From contig OZ007579.1 in NCBI GenBank assembly GCA_963931925.1, positions 37,741,566 to 37,805,565 on the forward strand: 64,000 bases of DNA, given 5' to 3'. The position numbers were made by a program, and so were the translations under genes. Shown here one piece after another: positions 6,701-63,624 of this stretch. Source of the DNA: Onchidella celtica (taxonomy: Eukaryota > Mollusca > Gastropoda > Systellommatophora > Onchidiidae). Below the pieces are notes generated by a model. The model had not been told where the DNA came from. It was given only the letters and a program-made list of their open reading frames with translations, and searched no databases. The stretch's first letter is position 1. Each line of letters begins with the position of its first letter.

Positions 6701-8689
6701 AATTAACTATAAGATACATTGATACATAAAAAAAAAAAAGGGAAAAAAGTGAGCCTTATATGCAAATACAAGTGCTTTCATTTTTCATTTATTGTGGGGA
6801 TCCTTTGTCGTGGACCCTGATACAGCTGCACCTTGCAGTTTTGCATTACAACTGCTTTTCAATTATAGCAATCTGTCATGTCAGAGAGAAGCAAAAAAAA
6901 AAAAAAACACCAAGGGTTTGAACATCTTGAATAGTTTCCTCCCGTCTCCCCTTCCTTCTTTCTGGTTCTGTGCTTTCACAGTGAAATATCTCTCGCATTG
7001 TTCAATTTTGTATTCCCTTGCGAATTTAATATATAATTATAATATTAACCATTACTTTTGGAATCCAGCGAAAGCTGCCTTCATTATCATTACTGTGTGC
7101 GTCATAATCACCATTTCTCATGACTGGAACCAAAGAATTAAGAGTTGCTGGCAGTTGAGGGAGAGTCATACTAAGCCCGGAACGGCATAGTCTGCTGCTA
7201 AGAAGTGCACACCAAAAGTTCCTATATTTTCGTAGCAAATCCGAGAAGGGCCTTTCATACTAAGCCCGGTCAGACACAGTCAGCTTCTTATTACTTGGGT
7301 GTACATTTTGCTGACGGCAACTGGCAAGATAGGCATTATACCTTATGGTTGGCTCGCTGGTCGGCAGGGTAGTAGACTAGTACACTGTAGCAGGTTGTTA
7401 GGTAAATACATGTGTAGGCAGAGAGGTAGATTAGAACATGGCTGACGTGGGATAGCAGTGGGTACACAATGATAGTCTAGGAAATAAATCAATAAACGCC
7501 GAGAACGAACTATAGCAATCACTTTATTTGTCAGCCAAACTTATCAACTATCAACTAATGTACCACTACATTCACATCCAGTATTGCATCCCAAAATTAT
7601 AATGCCGTTGGCCATCTAATAACCAACTGACCACCGCAAATCAAACACACAAAATCAACAAGAAAAAGATAACATCCTCTAAGTTTCAGATGAGCTCAGA
7701 GTCTCTGAGCCCCAAATTCAACTGATTTATTCATCCCTCGCCTACGCTACAAAGGCAGACGAAGTATACATTTACAATGTCAAGAACCAACGCAATAAAG
7801 GGACACCAGCGCAATGTCTGGACATAAATACATGTAGTAATTACAATAACAGTGGTTCGTTGAAAACCTCCCTATACAAGCTGGGTTGAGAAAGAGCTTA
7901 TGTAATATATATTTAAACTGTTGACGACGGCCATATTGTTTAAACTTTCGGTACCGGTAACAGTCTGTAAAATTACATCTAGTGTTGATAAGCAATAGAA
8001 AAAATGCCCATCACATCACAGTGTTTTACAAAGCTCTTTCCAGTTGAACTACCGTAGGCCTGCTAATAAAACTCCAAATGTGTATATATATATATATTAT
8101 ACATGTACTAAGAATGTGCAAAATTTGCAGCTACTTCTAAATTTCTAGAGATGTGTATTGTACCAATTTTCTTTCCTTTTAACAGTCCATCCTGTACATG
8201 TATAAAATTTGATATTGATTCAATGATTGTATGTGAATCTTACATTCATTGGGTTTTGCTAAATATCTTTTTATATGTACACTGCCATTTTATGTACATT
8301 ACCATTATTATATTGTAAAACACCTTGTCACAAACAAAAATTTTTAATCTAGTACAATAATCATTCTCTCGTGTCTGCCTCTCACTTTACATAAGTCTTC
8401 TTAGTTCTATCGGCACTAAAGTATAACTAATTTTCACATGCCCCACACCAAATTACACAAAAGACAAACGGAGATTGGCCACGCTACAAACATTTCTACA
8501 TAAATTGGATAAAATATATTTGTGTGTAAAGTGAAAAAATTTAATATGATAAAATGCAGTATAAAACAAACTGCAGCTAATATCTCACGCCTAAGATCCA
8601 CACAAGTGTAAAACATCATCATTTGTTGTTTAGACTAAAATTTGACACAACCACATTAATACAAAGTCAGGCATGTCAGCGCAATGTCG
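3710..8689. other. Intergenic DNA, no recognisable gene
   Basis: AT-rich sequence with only short uninformative frames. A G run lies at about 5909. The segment 6601-6670 reads like the end of a hAT-type element (GGCCGGATTAAGACC), but no partner end was found. A minus-strand frame at 5051-5253 is rich in aromatic residues but unrecognised. A short direct repeat (CATACTAAGCCCGG) occurs near 7168 and 7256. Confidence 0.6.
6150..6340 (-). repeat. Possible Penelope-like element 3' tail remnant
   Basis: On the minus strand the stretch around 6258-6290 reads as a Lys-Lys-Ala-Val-Ala-Glu-Ile-Ser-type tail (CTGTTGCCGAAATATCGGCC) like those seen after Penelope-like elements. No RT or GIY-YIG domain is present, and the assignment rests on memory of the motif. 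Confidence 0.25.
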
Positions 8690-9365
8690 AAAAAAAAAAA
8701 TGTCACAATTGAAACAAGAATTCACAATACACGAACCACTGGAAGATGTAGAGTCCTTCTGCTATCTTGGTAGTATCATTGACAATAAGGGAGGAACAGA
8801 GGCAGAAGTCAAAGCACGAATTGGAAAGGCACAGGCAGCTTTCACGTCCTTAAGCAAGATTTGGAGAACCAAGGATATATCTCTAAAAACAAAGCTGAGG
8901 ATATTCAACTCGAACGTGAAGTCAGTCCTGTTGTATGGATGTGAGACTTGGAATGCGTCCCAGGCCTGCATAAAGAGAATCCAAGTTTTCATCAACAGAT
9001 GTTTGAGGAAGCTACTTAAGATCAGATGGACAGACAAGGTCAGCAATGAAATTGTTTGGAAAAGAACAAGACAGAGCCCAGTCAGAGAGGAAATTGGTAG
9101 GAGGCGATGGAGATGGATCGGCCACACTCTCAGGAGGCCAGGAAACAGCATCGCGAAGAAGGTATTGGATTGGAATCCCCAGGGCAAGAGATCAAGAGGA
9201 AGGCCGCGCGGAACGTGGAGAAGAGCCAGAGAAAATGATGTGCAACGAAGCGGAAAGACTTGGAATAATGTAAAGAGGCTGGCCCATGATAGAGAGGGAT
9301 GGAAAGTGTTTGTTGGTGGCCTATACCCTGATCCAGGGTGAGAAAGGCAATGATGATGATGATGA
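8690..9365 (+). mobile_element. Non-LTR retrotransposon (LINE) 3' fragment, copy 1
   Basis: A 5'-truncated LINE with an open frame to 9341. It has the C-terminal RT landmarks FCYLGS, RIGKAQAAF, LLYGCETW and RRRWRWIGH, ends in GGLYPDPG and a stop, and finishes in a GATGAT microsatellite tail. The endonuclease and RT core are missing. The clade is uncertain (RTE- or CR1-like). The left border is set near the A-run at 8690, where similarity to a LINE frame begins. Confidence 0.85.
8697..9341 (+). pseudogene. C-terminal part of LINE reverse transcriptase
   Basis: About 215 residues remain with no internal stop, covering the thumb/connection and C-terminal region of an endonuclease-RT protein. 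The YxDD-containing catalytic part was lost by 5' truncation, so it cannot be active. Confidence 0.8.
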
Positions 9366-29821: not shown

Positions 29822-29960
29822 ATGGCAGACTTTGATGCTTTCGAATCGGCACCTAGTGGGGAAGTGGATCCTGCTGCTGACTTTCTTGCCCGGGAGCAGT
29901 CAGAGCTAGCTGGCTTGGAAGATGATAATTTCTGTGAAGCTCCACAAGACAGTAATCAAG
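29822..29960 (+). CDS. Clc: Clathrin light chain exon 1
   Basis: 46 codons plus one base, from MADFDAFES through the EVDPAADFLAREQSELAG block to EAPQDSNQ. Donor GTTGGT. Confidence 0.93.
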
Positions 29961-32900: not shown

Positions 32901-35900
32901 AGTGAAATTTGTGACAATTGCGTGCTTTTCCCAGACCACCACACATATGTGCCAGACTAAAGTCCCTCCCTAGATTTTTGCTGTTATGACCTAATTACTG
33001 TGGAGAACGGTTGAACCGAAGATGGTTAAACCGAAAGTAGCGCTAAACCGAAGGAAATTAAGAATCTCCGAATTTTTTCCTCTTCATCTTAGTTAACAAA
33101 CTAGCACTAAGCCGAAATAACCCTATGGTTAAACCGGAAAAAGAAAAATTGCTGGATACAGTGGCCAGTCCACTGGATTTGCCATAGATCGAGTCAAGTC
33201 ACTGTATTACCCCACTACACCCCCCCCCCCCCACCCACCCCAATTAAAGCACAGCATGCTCTGCTCTGCCCTGTAGTATAGGCCTACATGGAAGCAGCAG
33301 CACTACAAGGATAGAGGAGAGGGAGGGAGGCCTATAACCGCACGGGTCCGAAATCAGATGGCAGCAGGCGTTATGTTTGCCGCATCATGACTGAACTTTC
33401 ATGTAAAATGTGTGACATCAGAGAGACAACACTAGTTATCGCAAACAGCGCATACCATGGCATCGCGTACGGTAACGGGTAACGAGATCAGCGGGATGGC
33501 GGTTCTGTACTGTCCGCCAAAATGCATGCCTCCCTGTTCTGAGAGTTAGTCCACATTCGCCCACATATCCATGCTTCAAGTGTGCCTAGGCTTGAACAAT
33601 CACCCATCCTCGGGAGGTCCTCCGCCCGTCTGCACCAGTCAAGAAAACACACTAAAGAGGGGACTTTTGAGCAGGCTTATCAAAAGGTTGGGTTTAGTAT
33701 TTCTATGGGACACAGAAAGAAGAAAGAAAGCGCGGGTTAGGGGAGGTCTTCATCATATTATGTTTTTTTTTTTTTTTTTGGTAAGTGGCACGGACGGGGG
33801 GGAAGACCTTCCTCATCCTCATTCTCAGTCAAAAACACAGAGCAAGCAAGGAGTTAGGACGTATTGAGTCTGTTTAGCCTGTGCGCTTACATTATTTTGT
33901 CCTCTATGACAGTGATTTGGGCTACCTCTCTTGAAACTGGCATTTTCAAGCCTCCTATCGCTAAACCAAAACTCAGTCTAAACCAAAGACAAACCCGTGG
34001 TCCCGCCGATTTCGGTTTAACGGTTGTCCACTGTATATTATTTACGTATTTTCTCTTGTCATGTATGCCCAGATTGTGCTGGTTTTTTTCATGCTAAGGT
34101 GAATACTGTATGAGTGTGATAATAAAGAACAAGCGTCACAGGATATGCCTTTTTGTGAGAAAAAGAAAGTCACCTGACAAAGGTTGACAGGTAAAAATAG
34201 GCAGCATTACTCACCGGGTTGGATTCCCCTTTGATAGGTAAATACTGATAGCATGCCAAAAGCATGTGATGAAGAGACACAAGGAAACGAAAATAAACAT
34301 CTGAATTGATTGGGCTTAGTCCACTCGGATTAATTTTGATTTAGTGTCATCTTATGTCCCCGAAGAGGGAAAGACTTCTGAATGAGTCGCATGTCAGTAT
34401 TGCCAGGTTGCATTATATTTTAGTGTACTCAGCAGTTAATTGCTGGCTATAGAGGTCTAATTCGCCATTAACCCCCTCCCTTCACGACTGCTCCTAAAGT
34501 TGCATCCTTGTGGGGATCTCTATATTATCCCCCAATTTGGAATATATCGTTTCAATGGAGTAAGAAAATCTGGCTTTGAAATGCATGTGGAAATCCTCCC
34601 CCAAAATGTCACAGAGACCTCATTTATTATTCATTGGCCTATAGGTTTTCTTGTCATTGATCCAGTTCTTCAGAGCATTTCACTGTTTTGAATTTGCAGG
34701 TATTGATGGATTTGAACAACCCACTGAAAGTGCTGAGCCAGTCCAGCAGGTAAATAATGATTTGTGAGAGAGAGCCTGGTGGTCCAAAGTGAATGTGTAA
34801 AAATGTTGAAAGTGTAATATTAACTGAATGGTGAAATCTTATGTGGTAGGAATTGTGTTATTGCAGAATCATTGTGTGATATAAAGTCCCCACTGCTTTT
34901 ATTGCAGATGCATTTAAGGTATAAGGAAAAAAATTGGGGAAAACACAATAGGAAACACTATAATGAAACTAGGATACCCTTATAAAAGTACATAGTGCAG
35001 TTGTATTAACAGAGGGCTTGATATTGTGTCTCAGTGATCACTGTGCAATAATTGTTTGTCTAAACATTTAAGCCCTTGTATGCTTGACACTGCAGTGACA
35101 AAGCTAACTTAATCAGTGTGCAGTTTGTGTAACCTTTGTGATTCCGTAATGTGAACATGAGTTTAAATTGCATTTTCACTGAGAAGAAATGACGTTTTTA
35201 GTGATTTTTTTTATGTTCATGTGTCACTCTCCTCTCTAAATGTTTGGAGTAATGTCCCTTGCACAGTAACATTTTCATTTTGAGTGTATTTTGCTTCCGC
35301 GTTCTTCACTACAAGACAATTTCATTTGTATTTCAGGATGCTCATAATTCTCTCTCCCTTCGTTTTCTGTCCTGAATGTCAAGGGCATTATATTAAAATG
35401 ATTCCATCCAACAACTTAAAAAACTGAAAATGATAATTAATATGACTGATTCTTAACTTTCTTTCTGTGTTTAAAATTTTTGTTTTTTTCTGCTGTCACT
35501 CGACAGTTTCTCTATACCCTTTAATTTCTTGCCCTATGATTATTGAAGCTTAGCATAATCATATGCATGCTGAATGCATATCGTTTTATTCAACTGATAT
35601 TGCTCTTAGCATTATTTGTTAAATTTGACCTGTTAAGATGTTAATTCAAAATACTAGACAATACTTCGCATTTTAAATACCATGACAAACTGGGATAGTT
35701 CAGTAGATAAAAAACGAGCATCCACTTTCTTGGGTTGCTGCAAATTGAAGTTTGTCTGAAGCTAATATTCAATCACCTGATTTGTTAAGTCCAAATTGCA
35801 AACCCACATTTCATAAATCGCATAACTGGTTTACAAACTGGAGGTGTTGATGTTTATTCCTACACACAGCTCTGTACATGTCAAAGTGCCTATGAATTTT

Positions 35901-38900
35901 GTGTCTATTTTCTCAGTCTCTGTGACCTCAAACATCTCTTTATTGTTGTATTTTCTTCCTGTACGAAAAAGATCTCTCATAGCACATCAGGTTTTGTTAT
36001 GGATAACATATACATACATAAGCTGACTTCTAACTTTGCAGAAAGCTTGGTTGGACATAGAAAGCAGGAAGGCAGATGTCCAACTAAAACCCCCGACTGA
36101 ATTGGTTGATTTGGAAATAGGATTTTATATTAATAAGTGACTTATATGATTGATGGTATGGAGAAGTTTAAAATAGATGTATCACAATGTTTAGATAAGC
36201 ACAGGCTTTTTTCTGCCTTTTGTGCAGGTGCTGTCAAAATTTTTTGCAGGCCTGAATTTAAAGCAAAATGAAATTGGAATGAGAGAATATGAAGATCTAT
36301 ATTTTAACCTAACGTCTCTCGGGGGGACTTGTCTCATTGAGACTTCTATAGTTTATTGCATACCACTGATCATTTTCCAACTCCAAGCAAAATTTGTATA
36401 GATGTGTTCATGCATTGCAGTAAAGGGGGACCAGTTTCACTAGAGTATATTATAATATAGGAAACGATGTCTGACAGTATCACACAAGCTTCGCCCTAAA
36501 TCATTTATTACGCCAAGCAGAGTTCATGGCAGGTTCAGGCATTCATTGTTGAGCTCACGACCAACCATTATACTTCAGAACACTTCAGATAGAGGATTGG
36601 CAGACTCTGAAATGTTAGGCAGTGGTAATGATGACTTTGGTGGAAATGATGGGGGGCTGCTGGGTGGGGGCTTCAGCCAGCCCCCTGAAGAAAGCAAGCC
36701 TGCTGTGAGATTTACTTTCTATCTTTTTGAGTTTTCCTCGCTTTTCTCTAATTCAGCCCCCTTATATTTAGATTATGCATTGCAGTTTTATAGATTATTT
36801 CTTCACACATTGCATTAAAATAAGATATATTTCATTGGAGTATGTTATAGAAGGAATATTTGAGAGTGTCACACAAGTTTCACACTAAATTATATGTCAA
36901 GTAAGAGTTCAGGGCACACTGGCATTGTTGTGCTTAATCGTTGTGTTACACTCACGACCAACCATTGTACTTCAGAACGCTTCAGATGGTGGAATGGCAG
37001 ACTTTGAAATGTTAGGCGGTGGTAATGATGACTTCGGTGGAAATGATGGGGGGCTGCTGGATGGGGGCTTCAGCCAGCCCCCTGAAGAAAGCAAGCCTGC
37101 TGTGAGACTTACTTTTTATCCTTTTGAGTTTTCCCCGCTTTTCTTTCATTCACCCGCTTCTATTTTAGTTCATGCATCGCAGGTTTATTGACTATTTCAC
37201 ACATCACATTAAAATAGGACACATTTCATTGGAGTATGTTATAGAAAAGAATGTTTGAAAGTGTCTCACAAGCTTCACCCTGAATCATATATCAAGTAGA
37301 GTTCAAGGCACACTCTGGCATTGTTGTGCTTAATCGTTGTGTTACACTCACGACCAACCATTGTACTTCAGAACGCTTCAGATGGTGGAATGGCAGACTT
37401 TGAAATGTTAGGCGGTGGTAATGATGACTTCGGTGGAAATGATGGGGGGCTGCTGGATGGGGGCGAAAGCCAGCCCCCTGAAGAAAGCGAACCTTCTGTG
37501 AGATTTACCTTTTATTTATCTCCTTTTTGGTTTTCCTCCCTTTTCTCTCACTCACCCCCGTATATTCTGCACCTTTTTACCTTATTTTTTCTCCACTGCT
37601 TTCTATGTAATTAGTTTTTTTTTAAACTTACAGAAAGTAGCAAAACATTTTTCAATTTGATCTTTTATTACAGTACAAATTATTTGATTTATGAATGCCA
37701 TATGGCAGTGTCAAAATAGAAAAATATATTTTCTCAAGAGTGTGAGTTTGTTTCATGTGAAAAAATGATTTATTTTGGTCTATTGCTTGGTTGGCCTACA
37801 TTAGTGATGGAGTTGGAATTTTAGAATATAAATAGACCCTGCACCCAACCAATAAGGTTTATGTGAGAGGTGTACCAAATCCTGACCCTCTCAACTGAAA
37901 AAAAAACAACAACAGATTTTCATTAGAATTTGAGGTTATTAAACTTTGAAGATCCAGTGAATTTTATACTTCATTCTGGAACACTTAGTTGCCTTGGAAT
38001 AAAACGCATTGTACAAAGCAACAATCTTTTTTAGTCTCAGGCTTTATTAGAATTAACCAGTTGCTTGTTGCTTTTTCTTTTTTGTTTTGTCTCTTCAAGA
38101 AAGAACTTTAAAGAATGTTGATATTAAAAATATTGTAGTTTGCCTGAAAACAATTAATTCTGTTTCACTTTCATACACCCTAGTGCAGTCCTTCTTCTTA
38201 TACATTAGTCTCAGCCCTATGTATGTCAAGATATTTATATGTATTATCCTATTATGATGTTTTGTCAATGAGGTTAGAATGTAGACATAGATTTAAGAAT
38301 ATGATTGTATGGGATCTTGTGTATACATATATGATATACTCTTGTATGGGATCACACAAAGTTGTAGAATTGCCTCACTAGAGCAGTGGAAGTGTCTTAA
38401 GTGTAAGACTGTTTGAGAGAGTGGTACAGTGGGGAAATTCATTTGTTGTTGATGCACTTTTACTGCTTAAAATTATTGCTGTTTTAAGCATAGAATTTCA
38501 CAATGCCCTCTACTGTACTCCCCTTAACTGTTAAAATATGACCTGGTCAAGAATTTGAACTAAAACTATGTAAGATCTTCCCATTTCACCTCTTAAATAA
38601 CATCGCAGTTGTGTCTCTCTTTTTCTAAAAAATAACCTTTCATGTTTCAAGACATTATTCCACTTCCTTCGTTTTGTTGTCGTTACAAATATAGGCTTTT
38701 AATTTCTGATTTCCCTAACAAATGGTTTTTGAAATAATGCGAACATGCCACTTTCATATTTCAGATTATCGTATTTCATAATTAATCTGTTAGCTAGATT
38801 CTCATTTTTGATATACATGTATAATAATATTGTGGGAGATGAAAAAACTATCATACTTATCAGAAAATTTGGATAATGTATGTTATATAGGCTCAGTCAC

Positions 38901-41900
38901 ACTGGAATCATCCCTTGTAAGTTTATATGGTACTCTTAGCTTATACTCTCCACAACCAAAGAAAGGGGTTCTTGTGCAGCAGTGCAGATTTGTTCATCCT
39001 ATGCAAAAGGAGAAGGGATGAACAATTTTACATGTGGGTCTTATTTGTCATTGACTATTTTTAAGACATGGCTTAGTCTCTGTATTGAATCCAGGGCTTG
39101 TTTTGTGTCTGTAAAGGTGAGCTCGTTGAATGGTGATAGGTCATGTATGATTTGTTAATGTTCTGTCACCATGATTTTCGTAGCAGAACAGCAGGTGAAA
39201 CTATCACTTCTCCCATACTATGTTATATGTGTGTCAAATATCTTGCTCCCAACCAACATTATCCATGCCTGTGAACCAAAAATAATTTCTCCTGGTGTTT
39301 CTAATTACCTTGACAACTGCAGACCTGCCAACTACCCCTTATTTTACAGGAGTGTATTTGGGGTGTTGAGAAGAACTTGAGAAATGTTTTTTCTCCATAA
39401 TGACAATTCCTGCCATTTATTTTTTATATAAAGGCCAGTCTGGTAAAGTGAAAGACAGTAATGACATTGTGATCTGAGAAGTATATTACTGTGTTGTTGT
39501 TTTTTTAAAATTTGTTTTCCTTTCTGTTGAAATCATAACAAACTGATGAATTCAGTTTGCCTTTATAGGTCATGGCTATGGTGTATGGTGTCCCTTATTG
39601 AAGAAGTCATTCAGTTGGTAGGTCTGCGACTGTCAGCTGTTTGAAGCAGGAACCTTGACATAACATTTAAAGTTCTTAATTTAATGACAGTTATGAGATG
39701 TTGTGCTGTCAACTGGGAAAATTAAACAAAAATTGTCAGTTTATGATATGTTAGGGAATTTCCAGTGTCTATCTTGAGAAGTCCATTAGGTACTTAGTGA
39801 CCTCTGATGGTGTGAACTCTCAACAGTATTCTCATCCTCTTGTACAACAAAAGTCTGGCCTGAGTAAGTTAGAAATACGAGTAAATAATATACTAGATCA
39901 GAAGATTCTGCAGTCTGTATCCACATTTGTTCTTTAAAAAAAAAAAAAAAAAAAAAATTTTTTTTGTCCATTGACTTGATTGTGCTTTTTTTAACATAAG
40001 GCCAAATAGTGAGTTTAGTTAGCAGAAATGAAAATAAAGTGAACCATTTATAGTTCTTAAGATTTGAATCGATAGAAAGCACACAAAAATTTTGCAAGTC
40101 ATGGCGTTGTAGCATATCATTGCTATTAATGTGGAATAGGGATGTAGTCATAGACTCTCTTTTATTAATATTGGCAGAGAGCCCTTTTTGAGATTACTTA
40201 CATTAGGGTAATTTTAAAAAAAATATGCATGACCGCAGTAAGTATCAGACTGTACTTTTTCATCTTTTCTTACATTATTGTTTTATCTTTATTTGGTAGA
40301 GATTGAGGAGAGTAGATGAGGAGACTATTTATATATTTTCATCATGACTTCAGTCGTTTGCCGCCTGCAGAGAATCGGAGAGAAACTTGGCAAACATTTG
40401 GCAAAAATATTTGTAAAATGTAGCTCTCTTTCTAGAACTGAAACACAGTCATGGTATTCACCCATGTAATTCTTCACTTTCAGTAAAAGTCTTGGTTGGT
40501 AGGCCATTACTGTTCTTATGTTAGCACATCAAGTAATGTTGTTTATATATTGTAGTTTCCTGTTCAACGAGACCAAAGCTTCTAATATTCATATTCTACA
40601 CTAACATGCCAACAACAAGTGTTCTAACTAGTTTCAAGTACAATTTTAGTGCTTAGATTGGTGGCAGCTTTGCCTGGCCAATGTAACCTAAAGGGTGAAA
40701 TATGTTGGCTTTTGTTGCTTCTTTGTTTTCTTTTTGGTGATTGTGATGGTATCAGCAGGACTGGTTTAAACTGGACTGGATCTTTAACTATAACTTTTAG
40801 ATCAAGAATATATGTTTTATTCTTAATCACGGAAATGAATAAGTTTTTTTTCTCTGTTTCAAAATCTTGATTATAAACTAAACCTTTCTATATTGTGATA
40901 TTTTTTTTTCCCCTTTTTACGTCTCATCTGCCATCAGTTATCTGTCCATAATGAATTTTGATTTAGTCTTCCTTAAGTCCTTTCCATGCATTGGTGTGTT
41001 TTGTTTATGAGAGCATAATATTCGGTGTAGATGGAAATCTTGTGTGCACTTTCAGACATATCACATTTTTATATGGTGCAATTTTGTCTTCTCCAGACTA
41101 ACGGACCAAGCAATATCTACGAAGCAGTTATGCAGCAAGATACTGCCAGAGCGGTGCCAGAGAAAATCAAAATTTGGCGAGAGGAACAGGAGGCGAGACT
41201 GGAGAAAAAAGGTCAGATGTTCTTAAAATCCTGCGCCGAATTCAACTCACACTAAGTGACACACCTAACATTCTAGTTGAAATGAATGCTTGTATCATAT
41301 TTTTACACACTCAGATATAACAACAGTAGACCGCACTGTGAAAAAGAAAAGAACTATGGTTAGATTTAAATACCTGTGGTGTGAAAGGCATAAGAAATGA
41401 AACAATCAGAAATAGTGAAATGCAGATTTGCAGATGCACTGGTTGAGGAGATTGCTAATTTGTAATACAGTATAGGAGCATATTAGAATTATACACTGTC
41501 ACTGTATTCTTACAATGGAATCTGGGACACAGTGAGAACAAACTGTTATGGCTACCTAGGACCTAGTTAAGTAAGGTACCATCACTGTCAGTGAGCTGAT
41601 ATATTGTAACGCACAAACTCAGAAGCTCATTCCTAGCCAGGATTAATTTTTATCAAACTAACTGCCGAGAAAGACACAGCAAGTTGTATTTGATGAATAA
41701 AAACCCATCATCTAGTGATGCCTTCCCATTTTTTTCATTGCATCTATTTGTTACATGCAGATGCTGAGGAAGAGTCTCGCAAGAAAGAGCTGAAGGAAAA
41801 GGCCAAGAAAGAGTTGGATGATTGGTACAAACATCATGCTGAACAGTTAGAGAAGACCAAGGAGAACAACAGGTAATCAAAGGATAGTTAGATTGAGGGG

Positions 41901-44900: not shown

Positions 44901-47462
44901 GCTGGTGTGGGTGCAAGACCGGTGGCTTGCCGCCCCAAAAATTTGCATTGCACTAGCACAGTAGGCACTGTCCGCTACATCCTGCTGAGTCAGGTGTGGA
45001 CAGTGCCTGTTGTGTTAGGGTGAAGCAAAATTTGTGGGGCTTTGAGAGACCGGCCTGGCACCTACCCCAGTCTTGGTGTGTTTCACCCCTCACTTTGATA
45101 AACTATCATCCAGAGTGCAGTAGGTTTACTTCACTATTTGCCTGCAGTTGTTAAGACATTTGGTGCCCTTATTATAAAGGATAACCACAGTTGCCCCTAG
45201 AAATGAAGCCTTGTTTTGCAGGATAAAGTTTGAGTTGTGAAATAATGAAATTTCCAGTAGACCTTTTTATTTGGCTACGCATAGAAACTGATGGGGTATC
45301 TACCGGTGGTTTGTTTGTGGATGGTAGCTTGACAGATGTTCCCTTTCATGCCTTTCAGTTATTTTGTTCTCATACTCATACTGTAGTTGTTGGTGTTTTG
45401 TGTTGTGGAAGTGATTTGCAAACTTGTACATAATGGCAAAGTATTGATGGTGAAGACAGCCCAAGCATTGCACATCATGTATTATCATCCATAGTTCATG
45501 TAGGCTGCAAAATTGTAACATTCCTAGTATTAATTAATATACATGCAGTGTGATATCAGTCATGGCACAAATGTGGAAGTCAATGGCTACTGTTAATAAA
45601 AGGAAGAATAATATCTGTAATAAAGGGAATACATAAATTTGAGCATAAATTTTTGATCAGCCAGTGTTTCGTATTCTATCTCTTTAAAGGTAAGTGTCAG
45701 GTGGCTGTCATTCTGTTCTTCAAACATTGTGTTTGTATGCATATTTGTAATGCCCCTTGTTTTATTGTTTTGTCTGTGTCAATCAATATCCACCCTATAC
45801 CCCAGAAATACATTATATAGGCTGCACATATGAATACGTGACCAGTTGACAACTGATCTGAAATAAAGACTGTGTCACTGGGCAGTATCAGCTCAGTGGA
45901 GAGTAGCAGGTAGAACAAGAATACCTTTCCCGCAACAGGAAATTACCTTCTGAACATTTTAATCATGATCAGTGATTTTGTTATATTTGTGATTTAACCT
46001 TTTCACATCGAACGGTTTGTTTTTCACCTTCCGCCTGAAAGCGTTTTATTTCATAGTAATTGTTCCTCGTAGATATACAGATTTGGGGTATGTTTGAAGA
46101 GAATGCACCAAAATCAGATCTCCCAATAAACTCACAATATGGTTGGAGTGTCAGGGTGTAGTAGAAGATAGAAATAAGTACATGTATCTTTTGTATGCAA
46201 ACATTTGTTGGACAATGTTTAACTTAAAACTTTGCTTAATCTGGGTTTGAGCGGTGCGGTGTGAAAGGTTGGGCAAACCCGCAAGGAGTCCTGTGTTCCT
46301 CGTAGATATACAGATTTGGGGTATGTTTGAAGAGAATGCACCAAAATCAGATCTCCCAATAAACTCACAATATGGTTGGAGTGTCAGGGTGTAGTAGAAG
46401 ATAGAAATAAGTACATGTATCTTTTGTATGCAAACATTTGTTGGACAGTGTTTAACTGGAAACTTTGCTTAATCTGGGTTTGAGCGGTGCGGTGTGAAAG
46501 GTTGGGCAAACCGGCAAGGAGTCCTGCAACAGTAGTGTGTAGGATATCAGTCGTTATAGCCTGTGTTGCTCAGGCGTTGTAGGGAATGATGTGAAAAGGT
46601 TAAATTGACAACTTGTTTATGAGTTATTCATCTTCTTTTTGGAAACTACACGAGAATTCTGATATGTTGAATTTCTTTAGTCGTGATTTTCTTTCAACCA
46701 GTCACGTAGATAATATGGAAGGTGATGGGTGGCTTCCTGTATTGTCCTGTAGATATATGCACTGCACTGTGAATGTTGTAAGTTTATGTATGTGAGTAGT
46801 TGTAGCCAAGATGATGTCAAGTGTTTGTACCAAGTAAAAGTTTATATTTTCCTGTATGATGTCCAAGCTGCCTGATGTGTACAAATATGAGACTTTGTTC
46901 TTGACATTTAATGTGGTGAACATCTTGTGAAAAGTCTATTTAAATAATATGTACTTTAATAAATCGAAGAGATCAGAGACAAAATCACTCTGGTGGTCCA
47001 TGTGAGGTTTGTAACTGTCTGTTATCGCATGTAAAAATTAGTGAATGCCCAAATGATATGAAGACAGATCCATGGATGCACTTTATTGTTGGACAAAAAT
47101 TGTTCAGCATATTCAGTGAACAACCAGGCAGTCGTAACTTTGTCTTTAGGACAAAACAGCAGTAACTGAGTGAACGGAATTTCATACTAACCTTTCCGTT
47201 ATCTTTGTCAGATACAATTGGGGATAGGTTTATGTTTGAAATTGTTCAAAAATTCTTTGGTAATGATTAATTCAATTTTCTATTTCTCAGAGCGGCAGAA
47301 AATGCCTTCATCAAGGACCGAGATGAAACTGTACCTGGCCAATCATGGGAAAAAATTGCACGCTTGTGTGAATTCAACCCTAAAAATTCAAAATGCACGA
47401 AAGATGTGACTCGTTATCGCTCCATCCTTCTGCAGCTCAAGCAAACACCTTTGGTGCGCTAG
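29822..47462 (+). CDS. Clc: Clathrin light chain, complete, with triplicated cassette exon
   Basis: Clathrin light chain binds the heavy-chain hub of the triskelion and regulates coat assembly and Hip1-family/actin contacts (family knowledge). Exons: 29822-29960, 34700-34749, three 126-bp copies (36579-36704, 36976-37101, 37372-37497), 41097-41211, 41761-41872, 47291-47462. All junctions are GT-AG and in phase. Without the cassette the protein is 195 residues; each copy adds 42 (237, 279 or 321). Landmarks: MADFDAF start; the conserved EVDPAADFLAREQSELAGLEDD block (Hip1-binding region in relatives); a charged heavy-chain-binding helix (IKIWREEQEARLEKK ... KELDDWYKHHAEQLEKTK); and C-terminal ARLCEFNPKNSK ... 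LLQLKQTPLV. No vertebrate neuronal-insert exons are seen. The ATG has A at -3 and G at +4. Confidence 0.95.
30240..30505. mobile_element. Candidate fold-back (inverted-repeat) element
   Basis: Imperfect arms: GGTGCTGCCC near 30268 and its inverse near 30470; GGACGCTCCTGA..CACGTCCTTGTA (about 30305-30332) and its inverse (about 30421-30450); centre GGAACTA...AGTAGTTCC (30356-30384). No clear target duplication. Confidence 0.45.
31314..32703. mobile_element. TIR element with 6-bp target duplication, 1390 bp
   Basis: CATAGCTGCCAAC at the left end is inverted as GTTGGCAGCTATG at the right. Both flanks are TGTATT (31308-31313 and 32704-32709). No long open frame. Termini resemble those at 39320, 49229 and 57064. 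Confidence 0.75.
32998..34033. mobile_element. TA-flanked pogo/Tigger-like non-autonomous element
   Basis: The right end inverted reads CAGTGGACAACCGTTAAACC; the left end reads CTGTGGAGAACGGTTGAACC, each next to TA. Subterminal (T)TAAACCGAA motifs repeat several times at 33020-33135. It carries a nested MITE at 33612-33812. Confidence 0.72.
33612..33812. mobile_element. MITE copy 2 of the 27751 family, nested in a Tigger-like element
   Basis: Ends GGGAGGTCCTCCGCCCGTC and, inverted, GGAAGGTCTTCCCCCCCGTC match 27751-27963. Flanks are CCATCCTC and TCATCCTC (7 of 8 identical). A 17-base T run is internal. Confidence 0.75.
34420..34590 (+). repeat. Diverged dispersed repeat, related to 28020-28230
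   Basis: Shares GAGGTCTAA, AAAGTTGCATCC, CCCAATTTGGAATAT and AAAATCTGG in order with the TBCEL-intron copy. Confidence 0.45.
34700..34749 (+). CDS. Clc: Clathrin light chain exon 2
   Basis: 50 bp encoding GIDGFEQPTESAEPVQQ between TTTGCAG and GTAAAT. Ends phase 0. Confidence 0.85.
34750..36578. other. Clathrin light chain intron 2
   Basis: AT-rich. It holds one possible tRNA-derived repeat (35685-35770) and the start of the tandem array; nothing else is recognisable. Confidence 0.5.
35685..35770 (+). repeat. Possible tRNA-derived SINE fragment
   Basis: GGGATAGTTCAGTAGATAAA resembles a tRNA 5' end and A box. About 40 bp on, TTGCTGCAAATTGAAGTTTG is a degenerate B box. No A-tail or target duplication was identified. 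Confidence 0.4.
36579..36704 (+). CDS. Clc: Clathrin light chain cassette exon, copy 1
   Basis: 42 codons, symmetric phase 0, acceptor ACTTCAG, donor GTGAGA. Encodes GNDDFGGNDGGLLGGGF and QPPEESKPA. It is the most diverged of the three copies (NTSDRGLADSEML at its start) but fully open. Confidence 0.85.
36976..37101 (+). CDS. Clc: Clathrin light chain cassette exon, copy 2
   Basis: 42 codons, same splice signals as copy 1. Reads NASDGGMADFEMLGGGNDDF then GGNDGGLLDGGF and QPPEESKPA. Confidence 0.87.
37372..37497 (+). CDS. Clc: Clathrin light chain cassette exon, copy 3
   Basis: Nearly identical to copy 2 over the first 31 residues. Differences are clustered at the end: Phe to Glu (two-base-plus change TTC to GAA), Lys to Glu and Ala to Ser. 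Open, with intact splice sites. Confidence 0.87.
37591..41096. other. Clathrin light chain intron
   Basis: It holds a small 6-bp-TSD element (39320-39626) and a long A run followed by T run (about 39935-39965). The rest is AT-rich with nothing recognisable. Confidence 0.55.
39320..39626. mobile_element. TIR element of the 6-bp target-duplication group, 307 bp
   Basis: CAGACCTGCCAAC at the left end and the inverted CAGACCTACCAAC at the right end. Flanks CAACTG and CGACTG match at 5 of 6 bases. Confidence 0.62.
41097..41211 (+). CDS. Clc: Clathrin light chain exon, start of heavy-chain-binding helix
   Basis: Acceptor CTCCAG, donor GTCAGA. Encodes TNGPSNIYEAVMQQ and IWREEQEARLEKK. Confidence 0.95.
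41761..41872 (+). CDS. Clc: Clathrin light chain exon, coiled-coil continuation
   Basis: Acceptor ATGCAG, donor GTAATC. Encodes KKELKEKAKKELDDWY and EQLEKTKENN. Confidence 0.95.
43375..43768 (-). pseudogene. Unrecognised coding remnant with a homopolymer frameshift
   Basis: Two overlapping minus-strand frames (43568-43768 and 43375-43686) read as one continuous protein-like sequence if the frame changes at a G5-A7 run near 43611-43625. Residues before it include ISLSPEVRNGMTSYKFGPTA; after it come NHLHVLVSNDNGCILQLATS and HKRQQLQTFASFSNSYTVTG. The composition looks genuinely coding, but I do not recognise the family. It lies antisense in a clathrin intron and could be a transposon gene fragment or a decayed gene. 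Confidence 0.4.
44275..44400 (+). repeat. Dispersed repeat, copy 2 (see 17370-17485)
   Basis: Same orientation and motif order as the TBCEL-intron copy, with substitutions and small indels. Confidence 0.55.
44881..45092. mobile_element. Fold-back MITE, near full-length hairpin
   Basis: The left arm (CAGGGGTGAAACA..CCAAG.CTGG, GGTGC.AG.CCGGT, GCACTGTCC) pairs with an inverse right arm (GGACAGTGC ... CCAG.CTTGG ... TGTTTCACCCCT) over about 95 bp each, with a short centre near 44980-44995. No clean target duplication and no open frame of note. Confidence 0.65.
45994..46603. mobile_element. TTAA-flanked element with perfect 16-bp ends and internal duplication
   Basis: TTAACCTTTTCACATC at the left is exactly inverted at the right (GATGTGAAAAGGTTAA). 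The TTAA borders and CCTT start fit piggyBac-type mobilisation. The interior is mostly a 233-bp tandem duplication. No transposase. Confidence 0.8.
46061..46526 (+). repeat. 233-bp tandem duplication inside the TTAA element
   Basis: 46061-46293 and 46294-46526 are almost identical by eye, with a handful of substitutions. Each starts TGTTCCTCGTAGATATAC and ends GGCAAGGAGTCCTG or similar (CCCGCAAGG in the first copy). Confidence 0.93.
47291..47462 (+). CDS. Clc: Clathrin light chain last exon and stop
   Basis: Acceptor TCTCAG. Encodes AAENAFIKDRDE, WEKIARLCEFNPKNSK and LLQLKQTPLVR, then TAG at 47460-47462. Confidence 0.96.
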
Positions 47463-52793: not shown

Positions 52794-61282
<8,489 letters not shown>

Positions 61283-62019: not shown

Positions 62020-63624
62020 TTAACCCTCGTCCCGCGTTGAGTGAACTCGTCCACGTAACGCCCCGTGCGAGGATAGCCAGAGGCCAGTCAGCCGATCGTT
62101 CGCGTGTTGCCGATAACCTCGGCGGTCGGGTCAATCGGGTCCTGGTGAACACGTGTATTGCGTATATTTCAGGACGCAATAACAACAATAGTGGCGGATA
62201 AAATTCATCGTAAGGGACCCCTATGATATTAATTTTTGGATAAAGTACTTGTGATGATATGCAGTAGGTTTTAATGTGAAATGGAAGGCCCAAATCAAGA
62301 ATTTTCTGCATTTACATGTCGTTTAACACACGTTTTATATATCTCTAAAAACAAAGCTGAGGATATTCAACTCGAACGTGAAGTCAGTCCTGTTGTATGG
62401 ATGTGAGACTTGGAATGCGTCCCAGGCCTGCATAAAGAGAATCCAAGTTTTCATCAACAGATGTTTGAGGAAGCTACTTAAGATCAGATGGACAGACAAG
62501 GTCAGCAATGAAATTGTTTGGAAAAGAACAAGACAGAGCCCAGTCAGAGAGGAAATTGGTAGGAGGCGATGGAGATGGATCGGCCACACTCTCAGGAGGC
62601 CAGGAAACAGCATCGCGAAGAAGGTATTGGATTGGAATCCCCAGGGCAGGAGATCAAGAGGAAGGCCGCGCGGAACGTGGAGAAGAGCCAGAGAAAATGA
62701 TGTGCAACGAAGCGGAAAGACTTGGAATAATGTAAAGAGGCTGGCCCATGATAGAGAGGGATGGAAAGCGTTTGTTGGTGGCCTATACCCTGATCCAGGG
62801 TGAGAAAGGCAATGATGATGATGATGATGATGAAGTCAGGCCATTCAGGTGAACAAATTATTTTTTAAGCCATTCGCTAAATTTACTAACCACATGTATT
62901 GTGACATTGCCTTCTCCCTCCTCTACTATGTAAAGCGTCCACTCACTATAATGTTAGTTTTAGCGAGAGATTTGATTTCCAGCTCCAGGTCGTAGAGCAC
63001 ATACATGTACTGAAAAGCGGTTTAACCAAAGGAGCACAACAATATTTCTCGAATTACCACATCAAATAAAGACAACGACCAACAACAAAGTCGGTCATTT
63101 TCTCCCAGTTTTCCCTGATGAAAAACCTACTGACAGACGCCCCTATGCAGCATGCCCTAATATTACCTCGGAATTCATAATTACAGACGTAGAACGGCGT
63201 CTCAAATACGCACATGGCCCCTTTCTTCTCATTTCACATGTAGACGACAACCAGCATCAAAGTAAAAGTTTCCTCAAAATTTTCCCCAGTTCAAACTTCA
63301 GACCGTCAGTACGATTACACGAGTATGACAAATAGTTGCGAATAGTTGCATCATAATAAACGTAATCGGACGATACCATTTTGTTAGATATAGTAGGGGT
63401 GACAGGATAGATAAACACGCGAAAATAGTGTGGAAAAAAAATACGTGAAAAAAAACAAACAACGACAGCCTTGGCAACCGAATAAACAAAGCGCGAGGCG
63501 CACCGTTGCTATACAAAAATGTGGCCTCCCGCAGGACCCGCGGTTATGCGTGTCGGACAAAATAATGGCCTCCCGTGCCTCGCAGGGAGGCCAATAAAGT
63601 GGTCTCCCGCAGGACTAGGGTTAA
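62020..63624. mobile_element. TTAA-flanked element, 1.6 kb, interrupted by a LINE
   Basis: TTAACCCTCGTCCCGCG at the left and inverted TTAACCCTAGTCCTGCG at the right (two differences in 17). A GC-rich inverted motif (CTCCCGCAGGAC) is repeated near the right end. About 1.1 kb without the LINE. Confidence 0.6.
62337..62833 (+). mobile_element. LINE 3' fragment, copy 2
   Basis: 5'-truncated copy matching 8875-9365 with only two substitutions seen by eye over about 480 bp, open to 62803, and with a longer GAT tail. It is antisense to alpha-tubulin. Confidence 0.9.

Follow-up and report, generated by a model that had tools for sequence, protein, structure and literature searches.

We examined a 64,000-nucleotide stretch of the genome of the gastropod Onchidella celtica (GenBank assembly GCA_963931925.1, contig OZ007579.1, positions 37,741,566 to 37,805,565 of the forward strand), hereafter the window, and found an array of three homologous exons inside a gene for the clathrin light chain (CLC), a protein with a part in cellular uptake. 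Exon 3 (E3) of this gene, the single CLC gene found, appears to have been tandemly duplicated twice along with its flanking intron. The best reading of the array is a triplicated cassette exon coding for a linker that joins the N-terminal patch to the heavy-chain-binding helix, with cassette use as a prediction. In particular, each copy would be a regular GT-AG cassette whose splice sites are weak and whose inclusion would not depend on the other copies, and transcripts carrying some or all of the copies would give a light chain with a longer and more negative N-terminal tether. We regard this explanation as a whole, from the double tandem duplication to the independently included cassettes that lengthen the tether, as fairly probable.

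A triplicated exon in the clathrin light chain gene

The gene model comprises the following features (window coordinates, all on the plus strand).

29822..29960, plus strand: exon 1 (E1), with the start codon and the conserved N-terminal DPAADFLAREQSELAG region; frame, donor, alignment with PDB light chains and whole-genome match
34700..34749, plus strand: exon 2 (E2), 50 nt, phase 0 at its end; splice sites, with only a weak genome match (E 0.16)
36405..37594, plus strand: the array, three tandem units of ~395 bp; repeat finding and alignment
36579..36704, plus strand: E3a, copy 1 of the 126-nt phase-0/0 exon; alignment, splice sites, frame and genome match
36976..37101, plus strand: E3b, copy 2 of the same exon; alignment, splice sites, frame and genome match
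37372..37497, plus strand: E3c, copy 3 of the same exon; alignment, splice sites, frame and genome match
36919..37068, plus strand: copy 2 side of a 150-nt run shared with copy 3, a putative conversion tract that stops at exon codon 31; run length, with ends from alignments
41097..41211, plus strand: exon 4 (E4), start of the heavy-chain-binding region; PDB alignment, frame and genome match
41761..41872, plus strand: exon 5 (E5), heavy-chain-binding helix; PDB alignment, frame and genome match
47291..47462, plus strand: exon 6 (E6), C-terminal exon with the stop codon; frame, splice sites and genome match

An earlier note, made from the DNA letters, had described three tandem units of ~395 bp, each with an open 42-codon exon, intact splice sites and phase 0 at both ends, and two repeat-finding tools together with alignments bore this out. 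Tandem Repeats Finder reported a period of 397 with 2.4 copies, and the second tool recovered three families of three copies each, at spacings of 389–397 bp (396–397 for the longest family). Each of the three E3 copies measures 126 nt, holds 42 open codons and is bounded by the acceptor TACTTCAG and the donor GTGAGA; from the exon coordinates, the spacers between them are 271 and 270 nt long. E3a, E3b and E3c are thus adjacent homologous exons with splice sites within one gene, which is what defines a tandem exon duplication. With a length of 126 nt and phase 0 at either end, every copy contributes 42 residues and leaves the frame undisturbed. We computed all 8 inclusion patterns and every one stayed in frame, giving proteins of 195, 237, 279 or 321 residues for 0–3 copies, as the earlier note had proposed.

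Identity and uniqueness of the gene

The CLC assignment, also made in the earlier note, is firm: the 195-residue form without E3 matched PF01086 at 1.6e-48 over profile positions 4–220 of 222, so E3 is dispensable for the protein core. The 321-residue form with all the copies matched the same profile at 6.5e-48, split over two stretches. PDB light chains aligned to the N-terminal region and to the heavy-chain-binding region of the gene; on this alignment the product is a clathrin light chain, with predicted heavy-chain binding.

Whole-assembly searches covered 1.14 Gb in 43 contigs. The haemocyanin beta-sandwich family PF14830, which marks molluscs, had 33 matches in the assembly, all of them on one contig (C7), and was absent from all 14 control genomes. 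The protein search gave 8 matches among 11 scored candidates, and these 8 are the 8 exons of the window gene; the PF01086 search gave 4 matches among 5 candidates, all of them at the window gene. Since all the protein and profile matches fall on its exons, the window gene is the only CLC gene found in the assembly. The DNA search placed the array at a single position. No retrocopy that could reveal the spliced form was present among the 11 scored candidates of the protein search. Finally, scans of viral and general genome contig collections for relatives returned 9 and 59 pattern stretches, respectively, none of which was confirmed, as expected for an animal gene.

Divergence and mosaic structure of the copies

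Over three alignment settings, the intron parts of the units differed by 22–24% between copies 1 and 2, 13–17% between copies 2 and 3, and 23–29% between copies 1 and 3, which suggests that copy 1 split off earlier than the other two. The exons have changed more slowly than their flanks in all three pairs (p from 4e-5 to 0.012), with 8/126 exon differences against 57/254 in the flanks for copies 1 and 2 (p = 4e-5), 14/126 against 57/246 for copies 1 and 3 (p = 0.005), and 6/126 exon differences for copies 2 and 3. Copy 1 is the most diverged exon, with six amino-acid differences from copy 2. The nonsynonymous and synonymous rates (dN and dS, NG86 method) of the three exon pairs were 0.070/0.055, 0.051/0.043 and 0.126/0.101, and because the resulting dN/dS ratios are 1.17–1.26, the slower change of the exon finds no explanation in protein constraint. 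Conversion or a constraint on splicing would account for it. Diversifying selection on the copies was considered and rejected, as dN does not clearly exceed dS.

The copies form a mosaic. Copies 2 and 3 share a 150-nt identical run that starts in the intron and stops at codon 31 of the exon, and no run as long arose when the differences were permuted 20,000 times. Beyond it, the same two copies differ at 6 of the last 33 exon sites (18%), which resembles the following intron (18.5%). Copies 1 and 2 show no difference over these 33 nt and share a 46-nt identical run (p = 0.008). We infer that the mosaic arose mainly by recombination or conversion among the copies. The earlier note had read the clustered residue changes between copies 2 and 3 as diversification. 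The changes are indeed those it listed (F32E, K40E and A42S, within the exon) and they are clustered, but a conversion tract that stops within the exon explains the clustering, and selection is not needed. The two spacers differ at 38 of 275 alignment columns, with no difference in the last 57. Pure unequal crossing-over between two ancestral copies predicts uniformly alike spacers and was rejected on this uneven distribution; a later conversion tract is needed in addition.

Intron 5 of the same gene contains a second, unrelated tandem duplication (46061–46526), with two 233-bp copies and 4 mismatches. It is probably much younger than the exon array.

Splice sites and exon choice

No other exon of the gene has splice sites as weak as those of E3. 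Scored on a textbook primate matrix, not fitted to O. celtica, the E3 donors reached 3.6–4.3 bits versus 5.2–8.7 for the other four donors, and the pyrimidine fraction of the E3 acceptors was 0.56 versus 0.69–0.81 for the other four acceptors. Such weak sites fit optional cassettes and prove nothing, and a variable light chain length through 0–3 copies is possible.

We also searched for a common flanking site able to pair with all three repeats, in intron 2 up to the array and in the first 1655 of the 3497 nt of intron 3. The best pairings had energies of −21.0 to −23.2 kcal/mol, compared to shuffle means of −18.5 to −24.8; two of the four tests were stronger than the shuffle mean and none beat the best of 12 shuffles.

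Weighing of alternative explanations

Several observations weigh against the proposal of independently included cassettes. The dN/dS ratios give no sign of protein-sequence constraint on E3, and conversion by itself could be enough to explain its low exon divergence. No E3 exon carries an indel, yet this is not significant (P 0.09–0.21). Of 945 intronic AG sites, only 65% fall below the E3 acceptors in pyrimidine fraction, and the E3 donors outscore 87–91% of 1060 intronic GT sites on the textbook primate matrix; given how little these sites stand out from the intron background, sequence alone is no proof of their use. At the protein level, the alignment with PDB light chains places EVD where vertebrates have the acidic triplet EED, so the contact made by the N terminus is possibly not the same as in mammals.

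Constitutive splicing of all three copies, which would give a fixed linker longer by 126 residues and no choice of isoform, is a real though not a probable possibility: the acceptor and the donor core are common to all copies, and spacers of 270–271 nt pose no steric bar to joining neighbours, with the frame kept, but E3 sites weaker than those of every other exon favour partial skipping. That a single copy works, the others being non-functional duplicates that are mostly skipped and kept similar by conversion, seems to us unlikely. The divergence of copy 1, the dN/dS of about 1.2 and the non-significant freedom from indels speak for it; copy 1 is nevertheless still in frame with its two splice sites intact, and exon divergence between copies 1 and 2 is 6%, compared to 22% in the introns. 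The suggestion of the earlier note that the copies could be mutually exclusive isoforms, one chosen at a time, found no support and is in our judgement quite improbable. The downstream intron pieces do pair somewhat more strongly than the shuffle mean (−21.0 vs −19.1 and −21.7 vs −18.5 kcal/mol), but the pairing tests in the stretches covered gave no common site that exceeded the best shuffle, the frame survives double and triple inclusion, and the spacers are of sufficient length for splicing.

Two further explanations have very little probability. Copies 2 and 3 might act as alternative first exons giving a light chain without the N-terminal patch, which we consider highly improbable. The 14-nt sequence ATGGCAGACTTTGA (ATG GCA GAC TTT GA), found at 36994 and 37390 in copies 2 and 3, is identical to the E1 start at 29822–29835 (p = 0.003, codon shuffles against copy 3; p values of the six peptide and two DNA tests of E1 and E2 against E3 are uncorrected), and G stands at −3 and +4, as judged by eye. 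However, copy 1 carries TTG, the similarity of the E1 peptide to copies 1, 2 and 3 is weak (p 0.22, 0.04 and 0.19), and the 14-nt match is possibly due to chance given the several tests. An assembly artefact, that is, a false duplication, is more improbable still. It has no direct support, although the tandem duplicate at 98% in intron 5 shows that near-identical repeats occur here; the intron parts of the copies differ by 13–29%, far above what alleles or read errors would produce, so a collapse or false duplication is unlikely, and the DNA search found one locus only.

An older origin of the repeated exon was considered as well. The peptide encoded by E2 (GFEQPTESAEP) is similar to the final part of that encoded by E3 (GFSQPPEESKP), with shuffle p values of 0.0008 for copies 1 and 2 and 0.004 for copy 3, while no similarity of E2 and E3 was detected at the DNA level in copy 3, the only copy compared (p = 0.46). 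The next-best match to E3 in the window fell in the E1 region, on the reverse strand, at chance level (E 0.49). The likeness of E2 and E1 to E3 is perhaps a hint of an older duplication.

The encoded linker

The alignment places E3 after the N-terminal patch and before the heavy-chain-binding helix. The segment is acidic and rich in Gly and Asp, the net charges of the copies being −6, −8 and −11 and the array containing 25% glycine, and from this composition it is probably disordered. E3 alone gave no match up to E 10 against PDB and none against Pfam at the same limit. The likely effect of the copies, as predicted from the encoded residues, is a longer and more negative N-terminal tether. In mammals, the N-terminal patch of the light chain is reported to make contact with the knee of the heavy chain and with HIP proteins and to move as lattices curve, and movement of the N-terminal tether reportedly acts as a regulator of lattice structure and of endocytosis in mammalian cells (PMC9911608).

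A more specific role can be imagined, in which the array would be a dial of length and valency: 0–3 acidic 42-residue modules would alter the reach of the patch that contacts the heavy-chain knee and HIP proteins, possibly also how many myosin VI-like docking peptides (LLDGG, copies 2 and 3) the light chain carries, and hence the coupling of coated pits to actin. We consider this proposal speculative and rather improbable. LLDGG occurs in E3b and E3c, and E3a has G in place of D. Residues A51, I54, L55 and D56 of CLCa have been described as critical for the binding of myosin VI (PMC6823378), and the CLCa 46–61 myosin VI-binding peptide, like E3, precedes the heavy-chain-binding helix; the LLD of E3b and E3c is like its I54, L55 and D56. 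The likeness extends to few residues and is possibly due to chance.

Comparison with known systems

The splice inserts of vertebrate light chains (CLTA exons 5 and 6, CLTB exon 5) are, like E3, in-frame optional exons that alter light chain length, optional use of E3 being predicted. Neuronal CLC inserts change lattice curvature in vitro (PMC7519287; PMC8712872). The vertebrate inserts comprise 18 and 12 residues in CLTA and 18 in CLTB and lie near the C terminus (PMC7519287), whereas E3 has 42 residues, is located N-terminal to the heavy-chain-binding helix and is triplicated; unlike E3, they are not described as tandem copies of one exon in the available portions of PMC7519287 and PMC8712872. 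For invertebrates, a single light chain gene is described (PMC8712872).

Tandemly duplicated exons have been reported in ~10% of animal genes (2002 study cited by PMC9013439) and likewise consist of adjacent homologous exons with flanking intron within one gene. High-identity duplicates such as E3 are rarer than tandem exon duplicates overall: at an 80% identity cut-off, the share of exonic nucleotides with homologs in the same gene was ~2% in human, 0.08% in fly and 0.06% in worm (PMC9013439). The examples given in the introduction of that paper are mutually exclusive, whereas nothing found here points to exclusion for E3. Among molluscs, the oyster alternative oxidase gene also has a duplicated exon, with two mRNAs (PMC5589949); it is a different gene and its transcripts were identified, whereas the E3 copies are known from genomic DNA alone. 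Within open-licence papers, we found no literature joining the clathrin light chain with exon duplication, tandem or otherwise. Tandem exon duplication is thus a known kind of event and, for light chains, the position of E3 was not described in the literature found.

Other features of the window

Pieces of a tubulin gene (PF03953 and PF00091) were detected on the minus strand at 56262–60657. Two open stretches, at 8646–9338 and 62327–62800, look nearly alike in translation, and the first of them matches PF20049 (DUF6451); we take both to be probably the tail of a non-LTR retroelement. Finally, an open frame at 2–2380 contains reverse transcriptase, RNase H and integrase zinc-binding families, and by domain order it is presumably a Ty3/gypsy-like retroelement.

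Significance

If all the copies are always included, the array would amount to a longer linker and would be of modest interest. Variable splicing, on the other hand, would let a mollusc that has a single light chain gene diversify its light chains in a way of its own, at the flexible N-terminal tether, and would offer a natural length series to test tether length. Should the array in addition act as a dial of length and valency, light chain diversity would come from exon copy number, where vertebrates use two genes and C-terminal inserts.
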